DNA of 64,000 nucleotides from the NCBI RefSeq assembly GCF_021389955.1, contig NZ_CP089980.1, forward strand, positions 4,707,001 through 4,771,000, read 5' to 3'. The stretch's first letter is position 1, and each line of letters starts with the position of its first letter. Shown here in pieces: positions 53,709-60,955 of this stretch. The DNA comes from Fulvivirga maritima (lineage in GTDB: Bacteria; Bacteroidota; Bacteroidia; Cytophagales; Cyclobacteriaceae). The notes beneath the pieces are model-generated. The model saw only the letters and a program-made list of their open reading frames with translations. It made no database searches and was not told the DNA's origin. Both the position numbers and the translations under genes were made by a program.

Positions 53709-54449
53709 ATGCGAAACATTAAAAATCAGGTGATAGCAATTACAGGTGCAAGTGAAGGAATAGGTAAGGCAATAGCTTTAAAGCTGGCTGCTTATGGAGT
53801 TAAGGTAGCGCTAGGAGCCAGAAATGAACAAAGGCTAGGGCAAATTGTAGATGAGATTAACAGTAAGGGAGGAGATGCCATTTTTGTTAAAACCGATGTT
53901 ACTCAGAAAGAGGATATGGCTCAATTAGTGAAAGAAGCAGTGAAGCATTTTTGCCGATTAGATGTTATTATAAATAATGCAGGAGTAGCCACTTTGAGCC
54001 TTATTGATGAGCTGGATTTGGATAATTGGGATAAGATGATTGACGTAAATATAAAAGGTGTTTTATATGGTATGGCAGCTGCTATACCTGTATTTAAGCA
54101 TCAAAATGCTGGTCATATTATTAATATCATATCCACTTCAGGCATTAAAATTACACCTACACAAGGAGTGTATGCAGGTACTAAAAATGCTGTTCGCACT
54201 ATTGCAGAGGCTTTCAGGCAAGAATCAGATGGAAGTATTCGCATAACGGGTATATCACCAGGCTATATCAATACTGACTTTGCTGCTAAAGGCGTGGCTA
54301 CTGAAGAGCAAAAAGGAGAGATGAGAAAGGTGGTGAGTCAAATAGCCATTAGTCCTGAAGTTATTGCTGATGCTGTCATTTATGCCATCAGTCAGCCTAA
54401 AGAAGTAGAGGTAGGGGACATAGTTATTCGCCCATCGGTTCAAAATTGA
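53709..54449 (+). CDS. Short-chain dehydrogenase/reductase (classical SDR)
   Basis: This 246-residue oxidoreductase has the nucleotide motif TGASEGIGKAIA (12-23), the structural NNAG (89-92) and the catalytic set Ser142, Tyr155 and Lys159 in STSG and YAGTKNA. The ARN after beta-2 suggests NADP(H). Classical SDRs of this type reduce ketones or oxidise alcohols. It is the first gene of a three-gene run with an AraC regulator (22 bases later) and the adenylation/oxoamine-synthase enzyme, so reducing the enzyme's ketone product is a plausible job. It could also be an unrelated general SDR. Confidence 0.92.
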   Translation: MRNIKNQVIAITGASEGIGKAIALKLAAYGVKVALGARNEQRLGQIVDEINSKGGDAIFVKTDVTQKEDMAQLVKEAVKHFCRLDVIINNAGVATLSLIDELDLDNWDKMIDVNIKGVLYGMAAAIPVFKHQNAGHIINIISTSGIKITPTQGVYAGTKNAVRTIAEAFRQESDGSIRITGISPGYINTDFAAKGVATEEQKGEMRKVVSQIAISPEVIADAVIYAISQPKEVEVGDIVIRPSVQN

Positions 54450-54470: not shown

Positions 54471-55385
54471 ATGAAGGAGAAATCAGAAATACATTATTTT
54501 AAGAGTATATCGCAATTACTTCAAGAGTTGCAATTACCTGCTCCTAATCATCCGTTAATAGCATTGGTTAATTATAATGGGGTGAAAGTGCAACAGCTGG
54601 AAAGGGGTCGGAAAAATTGCATTGATTTTTATAAAATCTCATTTAAGCTCAGTTTTAAGGGGCAGACAAAATATGGCCGTGGATATTATGACTTTGAGGA
54701 AGGTGGATTGGCTTTTTTACAACCTCGCCAGATAGTTGCCTCTCCTGATAATCTGGGTGACTATGAAGGGTGGGCACTCTACTTCCATCCTGACTTTATT
54801 AGAAATTATGCTTTGGGTAAAATGATGAATAAATATGGTTTCTTTGCTTACGATGTTTCAGAAGCCTTGTTTTTGTCCGCTAAGGAAAAAGAGGTTATTT
54901 CAGATTTATTTAACTCCATAGCTAAAGAGCTAAGCGGTAATATAGATCAATACACTCAAGATGTATTGGTATCTCAGCTTGAATTGCTGTTAAACTACAG
55001 TAACCGGTTCTATAACAGGCAGTTTATTACACGCAAAACGGTTAATAATGATATAATCAATAAGCTGGATAAGTTGTTGGATAATTATTTTAATGCAGGA
55101 GAAGGGTTGCATAATGGAGTACCTTCAGTATTGCATATTAGTGAAGAGTTACAATTATCACAACGCTACCTTAGTGACATGATTAAGTCCTTAACCGGCC
55201 TTACCACACAGCAATATATTCAAAACAGTATGATCGAGAGGGCAAAGGATAAATTATCCACTACTAAGCTATCGGTGAGCCAAATAGCTTATGATTTAGG
55301 CTTTGAGCACTCTCAATCTTTCAGTAAACTTTTTAGGGCCAGTACACAACTCACCCCTCTACAATTCAGAAAGTCGTTTGATTAG
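54471..55385 (+). CDS. AraC-family transcriptional regulator
   Basis: This 304-residue regulator has an N-terminal cupin-like sensing domain (about 30-180, with FQP-type strand YDFEEGGLAFLQPRQIV) and a C-terminal double helix-turn-helix (about 205-302: VLHISEELQLSQRYLSDMIKSLTGLTTQQYIQ, then LSVSQIAYDLGFEHSQSFSKLFRASTQLTPLQFRKS). It lies between the SDR and the large synthetase gene, all on the same strand. It may activate the synthetase or the SDR. The inducer is unknown. Confidence 0.93.
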   Translation: MKEKSEIHYFKSISQLLQELQLPAPNHPLIALVNYNGVKVQQLERGRKNCIDFYKISFKLSFKGQTKYGRGYYDFEEGGLAFLQPRQIVASPDNLGDYEGWALYFHPDFIRNYALGKMMNKYGFFAYDVSEALFLSAKEKEVISDLFNSIAKELSGNIDQYTQDVLVSQLELLLNYSNRFYNRQFITRKTVNNDIINKLDKLLDNYFNAGEGLHNGVPSVLHISEELQLSQRYLSDMIKSLTGLTTQQYIQNSMIERAKDKLSTTKLSVSQIAYDLGFEHSQSFSKLFRASTQLTPLQFRKSFD

Positions 55386-55694: not shown

Positions 55695-58600
55695 ATGAGT
55701 AAATCTGAATCGACCTAAGCCCAGTGTAACAAAACGAAAGATAGAAGATCATAGTGCTGAAAGCATTTGCTCACTATTACATCAGCAGGCAAGTCTAAAT
55801 CCTGAGCGGATAGCTATTATTGATAGAGAAAAGCAAATTACTTTTAATCATCTTAAGGAAAGGGCCAATGCCGTATCGGGTGAACTTGCGTTTAGAGGAT
55901 TAACTACTGGTGATTTGGTGGGAGTGTGCATGGACCGTAGCTGGGAGCTTGTAGCTAGTTTGTGGGGCGTATTAAAAGCTGGCTGTGCTTATGTACCGCT
56001 AGATCCTGCGTACCCTCACGAACGAGTACGTTATATGATGAGGCATTCTAAAGCACGGGCCGTAATAGTAGATGGAGAGGCTACGGCTGAGCTTTGTGAC
56101 GAAGTGAGTGAACAGCTTTGGCTGAAGGATATAGGAGCAAATACTTTTGACAATGTTGTAGAACCTGCAGCAGATGATTTGGCTTATGTTATTTATACCT
56201 CAGGGTCTACAGGTGAGCCCAAAGGAGTGGCAATAGAGCATAGGAATGTAGTAGCTATGATTCAGGCTATGGCTGACCTTGTAGATGAAAAGGATCTTGA
56301 TGGAGTGTTGGCAGCTACTTCTGTTTGTTTTGATCCTTCCGTAATGGAGATACTCGGTACCTTGTCATTAGGAGGAACTGTGGTGATGGCCAAAAACATG
56401 CTTGACCTACCTCAATTAGATTCTGCAAAGCAAGTAAAAAGCTGTGTGGTGGTGCCATCTGCAATACAGGCATTGATATCTACAGGATGGGTGCCGGAGA
56501 GCATTCGTACTATTATTTTTGGAAGCGAAGCGCTTAAACTTCCATTGGTAGAAAAGCTGTTTTCCTTAAAACCTGATATTCGAATTTTTAATGCCTATGG
56601 ATCGACCGAAGATACAGTATTTTCCACTTCAATAAAGATAGAAGAAGGAATACAAGCAGTTACTATTGGTAAATCGGTGCCAAATTCCAGTTCTTATATT
56701 TTAGATGAAGCTATGAATTTAGTGCCTCAAGGTGAACCTGGTGAGCTGTATTTAGCGGGTAATAAATTGGCAAGAGGCTATTTATATGATGAGCCTCGTA
56801 CACAAAAGAGGTTTATTAGTACAGAAAACTATCAACATATTTCGGCAAAAAGAATATATAAAACTGGCGACCTCTGTCGGAAATTAGCGAATGGAGAGAT
56901 TGAATTTTTGGGCCGTGTGGACCAACAGGTGAAAATTAGAGGCTTTAGGGTGGAGTTGGAAGAAATAGAAACAGCCTTAGAAAATTTCACGGGAATAGAT
57001 CTTGCCGCTGCAGTGGCAGTAGAAGGAGGGGCTGGGCAGAATATGCTGGTGGCTTACATAGTAAGTAAGGATAAGTCTATAACTGATGTAGATGTGAAAA
57101 CATTTTTATCGCAAAGAATGCCCAAATATATGATTCCACAAAAGGTGGTTAGGTTAAATGAATTACCTCTGTTACCAAATGGAAAACTAGATCGGAATAA
57201 GCTTTCAAGTATAAAAAATGAAGGTGTTGAAGCGATAAATGCAGAAGTGTCAGAAAACGATTATAAAGGAAATCAAAATTCTCTAAATAATCAGAAATCG
57301 GCCATTTTTTCAATTATTCAGAAGGAAACAGTTGCTTTACTTAATATTACAGATGCCCATCTAGTCACTGAGAACCAATCATTCGATAGTTTGGGAATAG
57401 ATTCTCTTACTACCTTCGAGCTTAGTAGCAGGCTTTCTAAAGCTTTAAATTTGCGTTTACCAGCTACTATTGTATTAGAGCATGCTACTCCGGCAGATTT
57501 GGTTGACTATATTTTAAGTCAAAAGGGTATAACCCAAGAGTTTCAACATAAAAATAACAATACAAAGGCACCAGATTCATTAACTGATTTTCAGGCTAAT
57601 ATACGATCAAGTCATCCTACTTTTCAGGCAGCTAAAGTGTCAGCGTGGTCAGCTACTGACAAAGGTAAGTTAGTGCAAGAGGTATTGCGCATGGTTAATG
57701 ATCAGCGAAGAAACCCCTACAGCAAGGTGCTCAAAACAGGAAGTGCCACTCGGGGTTTGGTGAGCGATGCTTATAATGATGAAGAAAAAGAGGCCATAAT
57801 ATGGACTACCAACTTATATCTTGGGCTTAATAGAGATAAGGAAGTGATAAGTGCAGCCTCTAAGGCACTTCATAGCTTTGGCACTGGTATGGGTACTTCA
57901 GCCGCAGCCTCAGGCATGACAGATCTTCACCTGGAATTCGAACAAGAATTTGCTGAATTAACAGGCAAACCCTCGGCATGTCTTTTTCCTACAGGATATA
58001 CGGCTAATGTGGGGGCTGTTGCAGGAATATTAGGTAGAAATGACGTGGTAATAATTGATCAGTTATTTCATGCCTCCATCGTTGATGGCGCCCGATTGTG
58101 TGGAGCTACTATCAGAACGTTTCAGCATAACAATGCTTCAGATTTGGAAGCGGTGATTAAATCAGAAGTATCTCCTTACCGATCAGTAATGGTTGTTTTG
58201 GAAGGGGTTTACAGTATGGGAGAGGGAGCTGCACCAGTAGCTGATATAGTGAGGGTAGCCAAGAAATATGGAGCACTTGTATTAGTAGATGAAGCTCATT
58301 CATTTGGCTTTTATGGTAAAGACGGAGCGGGTATCTGTGCCGCCCAAGGAATAACCGAGCAGGTAGATTTTATAATGACGACCCTAAGTAAAGCCATGGG
58401 TAGTATTGGTGGAGTGGTAGCCGCTTCACAAGAACATGTAGACCTTATCAAATCTTCATCGAGAGCATATATTTTTCAGGCTTCGGTGAGTCCGGCGGAT
58501 ATGGCTGCAGCGCTTACTTCTTTGCGAAGACTTCGCTCAGATAGTGCACTTAGGGATAGGCTTTGGGATACTACCAGGTATATGCGAAAGCGATTTGAAG

Positions 58601-59283
58601 CTGCAGGTTATGATCTTGGCACGGGAGATGGCCCTATAGTTACGCCACACTTTAGTGATAAGGATAAACTCTATGCCATTGTACAAGAGATGTATAAACG
58701 TGGGGTTCAGACTTCTGCAGTTACCTATCCTATCGTGGAAAGTGGTCGTGGTAGGTTGAGGTTTATTTGCTCTGCAGCACATACTAAAGAAGACGTTGAC
58801 TTTACGTTACAGGCACTAATTGAAGCTGAGCATGAAGTAGACTTACAATTAGCTCAGAAAGAACCGATAGCGCTTGATGGTTCTGATGGAACTGAAAATC
58901 TGAAAGAATGGGGTAACTCTTTTAGTAACTATGTAAAAGATTGGATTAATAATCATTTGAAGTTAATTCCCAATCTGGCTGTTTCGGTTAATTATAAGGA
59001 TGAAAGTGTGAGTATTTTGCTTAAAGACAATGAAGTACTTGTCACCAATCAAAGGAATGAGGATATTCCTCACTGTACCTTAAATTTAAAGGACCAAAAT
59101 GCATTAACTAGCCTGAGTAATTCAGATGTTCAAGACTTATTGCAAAGTATAAGTAATGGCAATTGTGAATTAAAGGGGCAAGTGGAGCCTTTTGTTTGGT
59201 TCATTGCACGCCTGGTAGAGCATAAAAACAACATGTCTATTCTATGCGCACAGGAAGAGCTTAGTTATGCTGGTTGTAATTAG
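55695..59283 (+). CDS. Adenylation-carrier-alpha-oxoamine synthase multidomain enzyme, apparent frameshift near the start
   Basis: Residues are counted from TTG 55915. An NRPS-type adenylation domain (A3 [11 protein letters not shown] 94-104, A4 [41 protein letters not shown]) leads to a carrier domain with phosphopantetheine Ser497 in LGIDSLT. A PLP-dependent alpha-oxoamine synthase of the BioF/KBL/SPT type (about 600-970) has VDEAH (Asp792) and Lys826 in [11 protein letters not shown]. The last 130 residues look SCP2-like. There is no condensation or thioesterase domain. The A domain's N-terminus is coded from 55717 without a standard start; ATG 55695 (MSKSEST then TAA) enters this frame if one base near 55716 is skipped. 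Inference: the carrier-bound acyl or aminoacyl thioester is condensed with an amino acid to an alpha-aminoketone. Confidence 0.85.
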
Positions 59284-59470: not shown

Positions 59471-60955
59471 TTACTCCCAGTCAAGTACTGATTGTCCTGT
59501 AGCGTCTAGACCAAGCTTACCTTCTTTGGCTCGTACTTTTATAAGGTAGCTTCCAGGTTCTAAGTCTGCAGGTATTTCGATTCTCCAGAGGTGATCACTT
59601 TTATCTTTAGGCTCCCACATTTTGGAGATTTTATCACTATCATATCTGCCATTTTGTTGTAATGTATAGGCTTTAGTTACCAATGGAGCCATGCCCTCGA
59701 ATTTATGCATCGGCTGCCAGTTTTTTCCATCAAAGCTAATCTCTACTTTGGTGTTCTCGCTCCCAGCAAAAACATTGGCGTATATATACTCCTTTTCAAA
59801 ACTATTAAAAACCGTATCCCAATCGTTATTTTCTGGTAGGGTAATGCTCATCTGGTAGTCAGCAGGTTTCCCTGAAGCCTTGTATTGAAAGGTTTCATTA
59901 CTGGTGTTTAATAGCCAATATCCTTTAAGCGTACCATCGTTCATTATGGCTAGTGGTATGCCTCTTTCGTCATGAGGGCCGCTCCACCAAGAGCCGCAAA
60001 CAGCACCAGCTACCAGTTCATGGATAGGCTCTTGTTCTGCTCTGTCAAAATATTTTTGATACTGCGTATGCGTATGTCCGGTTGCCACCATTACATGCTC
60101 ATATTTATCAAATAGTTGTATTAGGCGATCTTTATCCTCCATTTGTTCTAGCGGCATATGCATAAATATGCGGACATGGCTATAGTTGGATTTAACCTGG
60201 CTTAGCAGGTTTTCTATGAAGGTAAACTGGTCATCATCAAGCTTTCCTTTGTAGCCTTTATTTTCTTGCGGGTATATATTGTTAAGTACTACCGCTAATT
60301 CAGTTCCAAATTCAAAAGCATAGTAGGAGGGACCAAAAGAGCTTTCAAAGGTATTATCTCTATAACTGATTTTTTCTGCATTGTAATCTTGGTCATGATT
60401 TCCCATTACATAGAATACGGGGGCGCCAATCAGCCCTAGGCTCTCTGCTAATGGTTCATGTAAGTTACTTTTATCAAAAGTGATATCTCCTAGCGGAATC
60501 ACATACCCTAAATCTTTGCCTGCCAACTCATCTGTAACCAATTTGCTCATATGGTGTACATCATCTATATATTTTACCTGGGTATCTCCCAGTATGGCTA
60601 CGGTCATATCCTGAGGTTCATTATGTGTATATAGAGGAAAATTGTATGATCCTGTGCCCACCGCGTTTTCAGGGATGTAGTTTTGTGGGCGGTGGTCTAC
60701 CATGGGTGAGATATACTGTGTGGGCTTGATGATAAATATTTGATTACCATCTATATAAGATATTTTGTACTCTCCTTTATCATTAGTTTTTACAATGTCT
60801 TTTCCATTAGAAACCAAAACGCCTGCTAGTAGCTTTTCGCCTTTGTCCCATTGCTGGTTACGGTTTTCATCTACATAAACTTTACCTTTTATTGGTTTAG
60901 CCAAGCTGGTATTTATAAAGGCAATGATTGAAATTAGAACTACAAGATTCTTCAT
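59471..60955 (-). CDS. Secreted calcineurin-like metallophosphoesterase
   Basis: This 494-residue protein has a signal peptide (1-19, ending SLA), an N-terminal SdrD-B-like beta domain (21-75, KGKVYVDENRNQQWDKGEKLLAGVLVSNG), the catalytic core (about 118-330) and a C-terminal beta domain. Metal-binding motifs are all present: GDTQ (Asp124), GDI (Asp157), GNHD (Asn186, His187), the His in FMHMPL and GHTHT. Family members with this three-part plan are periplasmic or surface phosphodiesterases or phosphomonoesterases. The substrate is unknown. It is a single gene converging on the synthetase gene. Confidence 0.9.
   Translation of the reverse strand: MKNLVVLISIIAFINTSLAKPIKGKVYVDENRNQQWDKGEKLLAGVLVSNGKDIVKTNDKGEYKISYIDGNQIFIIKPTQYISPMVDHRPQNYIPENAVGTGSYNFPLYTHNEPQDMTVAILGDTQVKYIDDVHHMSKLVTDELAGKDLGYVIPLGDITFDKSNLHEPLAESLGLIGAPVFYVMGNHDQDYNAEKISYRDNTFESSFGPSYYAFEFGTELAVVLNNIYPQENKGYKGKLDDDQFTFIENLLSQVKSNYSHVRIFMHMPLEQMEDKDRLIQLFDKYEHVMVATGHTHTQYQKYFDRAEQEPIHELVAGAVCGSWWSGPHDERGIPLAIMNDGTLKGYWLLNTSNETFQYKASGKPADYQMSITLPENNDWDTVFNSFEKEYIYANVFAGSENTKVEISFDGKNWQPMHKFEGMAPLVTKAYTLQQNGRYDSDKISKMWEPKDKSDHLWRIEIPADLEPGSYLIKVRAKEGKLGLDATGQSVLDWE

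Follow-up and report, generated by a model that had tools for sequence, protein, structure and literature searches.

A candidate self-loading alpha-oxoamine synthase with an SCP2-like tail in Fulvivirga and relatives from three phyla

The window analysed here (a 64,000-nucleotide stretch of the 6.39-Mb one-contig genome of Fulvivirga, a marine-type bacterium) carries a gene for a synthetase which is probably a stand-alone, self-loading alpha-oxoamine synthase (AOS) giving a diaminoketone. Its adenylation domain, carrier, AOS domain and C-terminal tail follow one another on a single chain (Table 1). Pfam searches matched AMP-binding (255.3 bits, residues 28–362 of the open frame at 55699–59280), AMP-binding_C, PP-binding (PF00550; 43.9 bits against a cut-off of 20.8, which places this part among the carriers) and Aminotran_1_2 (158.2 bits, residues 699–1039), bearing out an earlier note on this DNA, made from the sequence alone, which had read adenylation, carrier and oxoamine synthase parts in one protein. 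The remaining Pfam matches up to E 1 were weaker PLP-enzyme families on the AOS stretch and one chance-level match; condensation, ketosynthase and thioesterase domains, all three already recorded as absent in the earlier note, and reductase domains were absent from this list. Pfam and NCBIfam together gave no further assembly-line domain beyond adenylation, carrier and AOS. The four Pfam families were all present in 17 of 17 members scanned (of 24), and 24/24 full-length members keep each of the eight catalytic positions examined: Asp and Lys in the adenylation domain, Ser in the carrier, and His, Asp, His, Lys and Arg in the AOS. A full-length structure model was poor (mean pLDDT 68.7, pTM 0.46, with the AOS part low) and was set aside.

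Table 1 Features of the synthetase locus (positions in the window).
Feature	Position	Strand	Basis or remark
SDR adjoining the locus, not a conserved partner	53709..54449	+	
AraC-type regulator adjoining the locus	54471..55385	+	similar regulators at 2/24 other loci
Start ATG of the F. sediminis orthologue (by position)	55695..55718	+	7-codon frame here, closed by TAA
Synthetase open frame (1194 codons + stop)	55699..59283	+	relatives align from query residue 2–22 onward
Amino-acid adenylation domain, residues 28–496	55780..57186	+	Pfam PF00501/PF13193, TIGR01733, pocket residues
Carrier (PP-binding) domain, residues 547–605, Ser569 at 57403–57405	57337..57513	+	
Conserved carrier-to-AOS-core stretch, residues 622–693	57562..57777	+	mean pairwise identity 0.66, 24 members
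Alpha-oxoamine synthase domain, residues 694–1045	57778..58833	+	mean pairwise identity 0.82, 24 members
SCP2-like tail domain, residues 1064–1194, conserved G-x-x-E-P-F-x-W	58888..59280	+	predicted fold

We investigated the 5′ end of the gene. The start proposed previously, at 55695, does not hold: this ATG opens a frame different from that of the synthetase, which encodes MSKSEST and ends at TAA 55716–55718. Within the synthetase frame, open from 55699, no ATG, GTG or TTG lies upstream of the TTG at 55915, and a start at that TTG would cut away the beginning of the A domain. In F. sediminis, the equivalent ATG, in a similar upstream context, begins a full-length protein whose intact gene lies at L014:7992–11579, and comparison with this orthologue revealed one extra base in the window directly 3′ of ATGAGTAAA, either through an error in sequencing or through a frameshift of recent origin. 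With its start out of frame, the window copy may therefore be silent.

Comparison of the synthetase with its F. sediminis orthologue gave an NG86 dN/dS of 0.10 (dS 1.7, near saturation), with changes at 591 of 1191 third positions and 137 of 1191 second positions, which shows that the gene is under purifying selection. Taken with 23 other full-length proteins of the same domain order, this ratio suggests that the pattern is more than chance. That the window strain holds a recent pseudogene, in which a one-base shift near the start blocks translation from the conserved ATG, is in our view rather unlikely; such a reading concerns the window copy alone and is compatible with all the other explanations considered below. 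The seven-codon frame and the extra base relative to F. sediminis both favour it, but the 1194 stop-free codons and the low dN/dS do not (although the latter averages the whole divergence, not the time after the shift), and a single-base sequencing error would give an identical appearance.

The adenylation domain scored 383.2 bits (window protein) with the amino-acid adenylation model TIGR01733, against a curated cut-off of 317.4, which places it in that family. Equivalents of Asp235 (56332–56334) and Lys517 (residue 496), in PheA numbering, were present in 24/24 members. The window pocket, with positions assigned by hand alignment, reads D-P-M-V-I-G-A-V-F-K, in which the amino-acid Asp is kept and the other residues are mostly hydrophobic; the Asp given in the earlier note is thus retained, and its Ala at PheA position 278 is replaced by Val. 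The consensus over 24 members is D-[TPVA]-[MSTL]-[VI]-[VILF]-G-[AVLC]-V-[FY]-K, with variation at 236 (T12 P10 V1 A1), 239 (M20 S2 T1 L1), 278 (V21 I3), 299 (V16 I6 L1 F1), 322 (A15 V5 L3 C1) and 331 (F12 Y12). The pocket is a good fit to no amino acid; it resembles a tyrosine code, for which a literature search found no paper, and this speaks against the aromatic part of the reading below. The loaded group is most likely a hydrophobic alpha-amino acid, perhaps an aromatic one, judging from the pocket; the invariant Asp235 and the TIGR01733 score support the earlier suggestion of an alpha-amino acid. Among single-stretch solved A domains, McyA matched best (374.7 bits), followed by ApnA A1 (301.4) and gramicidin synthetase 1 (257.2), and because McyA is the best match an aromatic substrate is left unsupported. 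The A5 motif of the window (56590–56610, residues 298–304) is NAYGSTE, with Pro replacing Ser in the other 23 of 24 members.

It is improbable, in our estimate, that the A domain instead loads some carboxylic acid outside the alpha-amino acids (a fatty, aryl or keto acid), giving an ordinary lipid-like or aryl aminoketone bound by the tail. To our knowledge, no acyl donor of an AOS enzyme bears an alpha-amino group, the tail is folded like a lipid binder and the pocket is mostly hydrophobic, all of which would fit such a reaction; however, the TIGR01733 cut-off is passed and the Asp235 equivalent is invariant. AOS-like matches also occur elsewhere in the genome, three in number and in open frames of 389, 399 and 419 aa, so lipid-type AOS work need not be that of the synthetase. 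A fatty-acid ligase identity of the A domain is disfavoured by the TIGR01733 score, and we retained it as a rival.

We then considered the carrier and AOS domains, for which a carrier Ser and a PLP-binding Lys had been noted. Both are there: Ser569, the phosphopantetheine site, and Lys898 (58390–58392) occur in 24/24 members, as do His791, Asp864, His867 and Arg1021, and these residues place the domain among the AOS enzymes. We take Lys898 to be the PLP Lys, His791 the stacking His, Asp864 and His867 the Asp and His of DEAHS, and Arg1021 the carboxylate-binding Arg. Four phosphopantetheinyl-transferase-family matches above cut-off were found in the same genome. None of the NCBIfam cut-offs for named AOS enzymes was reached: serine palmitoyltransferase (NF047599) scored 323.6 of 500, KBL (NF005394) 320.2 of 460, bioF 315.2 of 426.45 and ALAS 257 of 338.55. 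Among PDB entries, the AOS domain matched 3A2B best (229.9–232.2 bits), the serine palmitoyltransferase of Sphingobacterium multivorum, which uses an acyl-CoA donor. The two share catalytic residues, but 3A2B is free-standing and has Arg-Phe-Leu after the active-site Ser, whereas the synthetase and 22 further members (23/24) have Ala-Ala-Ala, which may make space for a thioester that is larger or of another shape.

Another reading, to which we give only a small chance, is that the PLP domain is an AOS by descent only and catalyses other chemistry on the carrier-bound amino acid (racemisation, aldol addition or elimination), or that its aminoketone is passed to an assembly line elsewhere. Ala-Ala-Ala after the conserved Ser in 23/24 members means that the site is partly rebuilt, which together with the failure to pass any named AOS cut-off and the many other adenylation domains in the genome would favour this; the AOS-typical His, Asp, His, Lys and Arg in every member, and the lack of a fixed neighbour gene, argue against it. 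Two regions dense in other adenylation domains lie at 3.505–3.567 Mb and 0.935–0.949 Mb of the same genome, with frames of up to 4575 aa.

The SCP2-like tail reported in the earlier note survives at the level of fold and not of sequence family. A tail model built from seventeen aligned tails was fairly confident (mean pLDDT 81.9, pTM 0.74), and Foldseek returned UbiJ-SCP2 (6H6O) as the best match (E 7.4e-05, probability 1.00), with ranks 1–11 all SCP2 or UbiJ-SCP2 and 7 matches at E ≤ 0.001, which places the predicted structure in the SCP2 fold; TM-scores over these ranks were modest (0.41–0.47 by query length). Three tails scanned alone (of 24) gave no SCP2 family match in Pfam up to E 5, so that UbiJ-SCP2 and other SCP2 domains share the predicted fold of the tail without a sequence-family match. 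The tail has a mean pairwise identity of 41% against 82% for the AOS (24 members, three phyla), and this difference suggests that one fixed reaction is combined with a tail that would be freer to drift.

We infer every chemical step and both substrates of the proposed reaction. The A domain would adenylate an alpha-amino acid, likely hydrophobic and perhaps aromatic, and the aminoacyl group would be passed to the phosphopantetheine of the enzyme's own carrier. The AOS, holding a second, free amino acid as external aldimine, would then attack the aminoacyl thioester; the carboxylate of the second amino acid would be lost as CO2, and the product, a ketone flanked by amino groups (1,3-diaminopropan-2-one type), would be freed without a thioesterase. 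Loading of its own carrier and use of that carrier as thioester donor, as proposed in the earlier note, agree with the parts, their order and the eight residues kept in 24/24 members. The tail may serve as a holder for a hydrophobic product or substrate, or aid subunit pairing. We know of no AOS that takes an alpha-aminoacyl thioester as its acyl donor.

Neighbouring genes were compared at 25 loci using mechanical ORFs of at least 100 aa in flanks of up to ~10 kb, shorter at contig ends; at GC-rich loci spurious ORFs can hide genes, and the L016 synthetase, a member, was masked in this comparison. Two pairs of loci (L037 and L014; L039 and L011) are the same genome places and were each counted once, and L034, a contig-edge fragment with masked stretches, was left out of residue counts and kept among the 25 loci. 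Clustering of 261 ORFs found no gene other than the synthetase at more than 5 loci, from which we expect the enzyme to free its product by itself. The idea that the neighbouring SDR reduces the product is unsupported here: SDRs occur at 5/25 loci including the window, with mutual identity of 27–32%, and on the locus comparison we reject this gene as a partner. AraC-like regulators were found at 3/25 loci including the window (22–42% identity), and with so few similar regulators elsewhere we reject AraC as a fixed regulator. The SDR–AraC pair is missing from the F. sediminis locus, where the genes downstream of the window synthetase persist (metallophosphatase at 83%, universal stress protein at 89%); we regard the two genes as neighbours by location and not as partners. 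The downstream neighbour at 59471–60955 of the window, conserved in F. sediminis, encodes a Calcineurin-like phosphoesterase that has both a MetallophosN and a MetallophosC domain. Directly after the Luteimonas-order relative, an open frame (L055:3997–6078) has, by eye, a FAD-binding-like motif at its start and has no Pfam match.

Full-length members number 24 including the window, with one fragment in addition, and come from Bacteroidota, Acidobacteriota and Gammaproteobacteria. One scan of genome contigs yielded seven full-length relatives of 49–75% identity: F. marina, F. sediminis and an Aquimarina MAG (Bacteroidota), Sulfidibacter corallicola and Acanthopleuribacter pedis (Acidobacteriota), and Luteimonas endophytica and a Pseudoalteromonas (Gammaproteobacteria). 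Genome searches used the carrier-to-AOS stretch as query and included the own or centre genome in each count; several tallies are lower bounds, part of the first-look candidates having been scored. The stretch was found in 10/15 genomes of the genus, 5/98 of the window's family (one being the fragment) and at least 1/395 of its phylum, and in at least 2/249 genomes of the Aquimarina family, 2/297 of the Sulfidibacter phylum, 3/394 of the Pseudoalteromonas order and 2/250 of the Luteimonas order. A query of carrier end, linker and AOS gave at least 3/194 genomes of the window's order, its own included; the two order-level relatives belong to another family and show 83 and 84% identity across this part. 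The synthetase family is thus common within the genus and rare outside it.

A FastTree gene tree of 22 members joined a Pseudoalteromonas-order member to a Bacteroidota clade (local support 0.998), paired an Acidobacteriota-sample member with Luteimonas (0.942) and split the genus into three groups, with weak nodes deep in the tree (0.762) and within the genus (0.040). Horizontal transfer of the single gene would best explain a gene tree that mixes phyla in this way. Five relatives, L011 (7752–7990), L033, L035 (its copy cut by the contig end), L038 and L042, carry ~70 extra N-terminal residues of the pattern MDxLTxFFxxLL...FNSGSSExEIAxNR...LNxAGV, for which the copies scanned gave no Pfam or NCBIfam family; this extension is missing from the window, and L017 has another one.

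The architecture had been called unusual, and in this it has a published forerunner: Milano et al. 2013 list A-CP-PLP2 (AOS) proteins, among them A1ZVW4 from Microscilla marina and A3ZWL3 from Blastopirellula marina, with product unknown, and name template AOS residues His137, Ala211, His212 and Arg366 (PMC3870968). The available part of that paper thus puts the A-CP-AOS layout in print since 2013 with no product characterised there, which makes the architecture less novel but falls short of the known product that the earlier note had set as a refutation. Adenylation, carrier and AOS follow in the same order as in the Fulvivirga synthetase, and Microscilla belongs to Cytophagales, the order of the window. 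No tail appears in their Table 2, which is, however, based on Pfam, and Pfam misses the Fulvivirga tail too; Pfam being blind to the tail, the M. marina protein, and likewise that of B. marina, may belong to the same family as the synthetase, as compared by published layout only. Beyond this layout, we have seen neither the SCP2-like tail nor the three-phylum spread without a partner gene in print, within the available parts of these papers. A search of open-licence PMC papers, mostly by titles and abstract starts, found no characterised A-T-AOS-SCP2 enzyme or product.

Several known systems share part of this design. PigH is, like TamD, a carrier–AOS protein. TamD of tambjamine biosynthesis, a carrier fused to an AOS and thought to condense the carrier-bound group with serine, is described in the available text as a two-domain protein of a 19-gene operon without an adenylation domain of its own (PMC4698589), whereas the Fulvivirga enzyme has its A domain in cis, which sets it outside the two-domain TamD/PigH type. 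BioWF of Corynebacterium amycolatum, a natural adenylating–AOS fusion that converts several acids and three amino acids into alpha-oxoamines in vitro, likewise has both domains on one chain, but the portion of the report available has it using acyl-CoA instead of a carrier, a carboxylic acid as the acyl part and the biotin pathway (PMC9544090). SgaB, from a Pseudomonas PKS sphingolipid pathway, is an AOS acting together with an assembly line, has SPT activity and leads to a sphingolipid product; it is, from the text available, a separate protein beside the polyketide synthase, unlike the single-chain synthetase (PMC12134224). For F. kasyanovii, the accessible part of a 2025 paper describes a single NRPS-like cluster that has no counterpart among characterised ones (PMC12565237).

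Going further, we tentatively suggest, with somewhat less confidence than in the diaminoketone synthase itself, that the acyl donor of these enzymes is an alpha-aminoacyl thioester carried in cis, which would make them the first AOS enzymes of this kind and a one-gene, horizontally moving system for a diaminoketone in which the SCP2 pocket receives the hydrophobic product. A pseudo-dipeptide joined through a ketone has the C–C bond type of protease-inhibitor scaffolds. If the proposal is true, one gene would suffice for the ketone-linked joining of two amino acids, making the enzyme a ready biocatalyst. Alpha-aminoketones can dimerise oxidatively to pyrazines, according to the available part of one report (PMC10230504). 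Since the synthetase is tied to no partner gene and named strains carry intact relatives, its product can be sought through single-gene expression.
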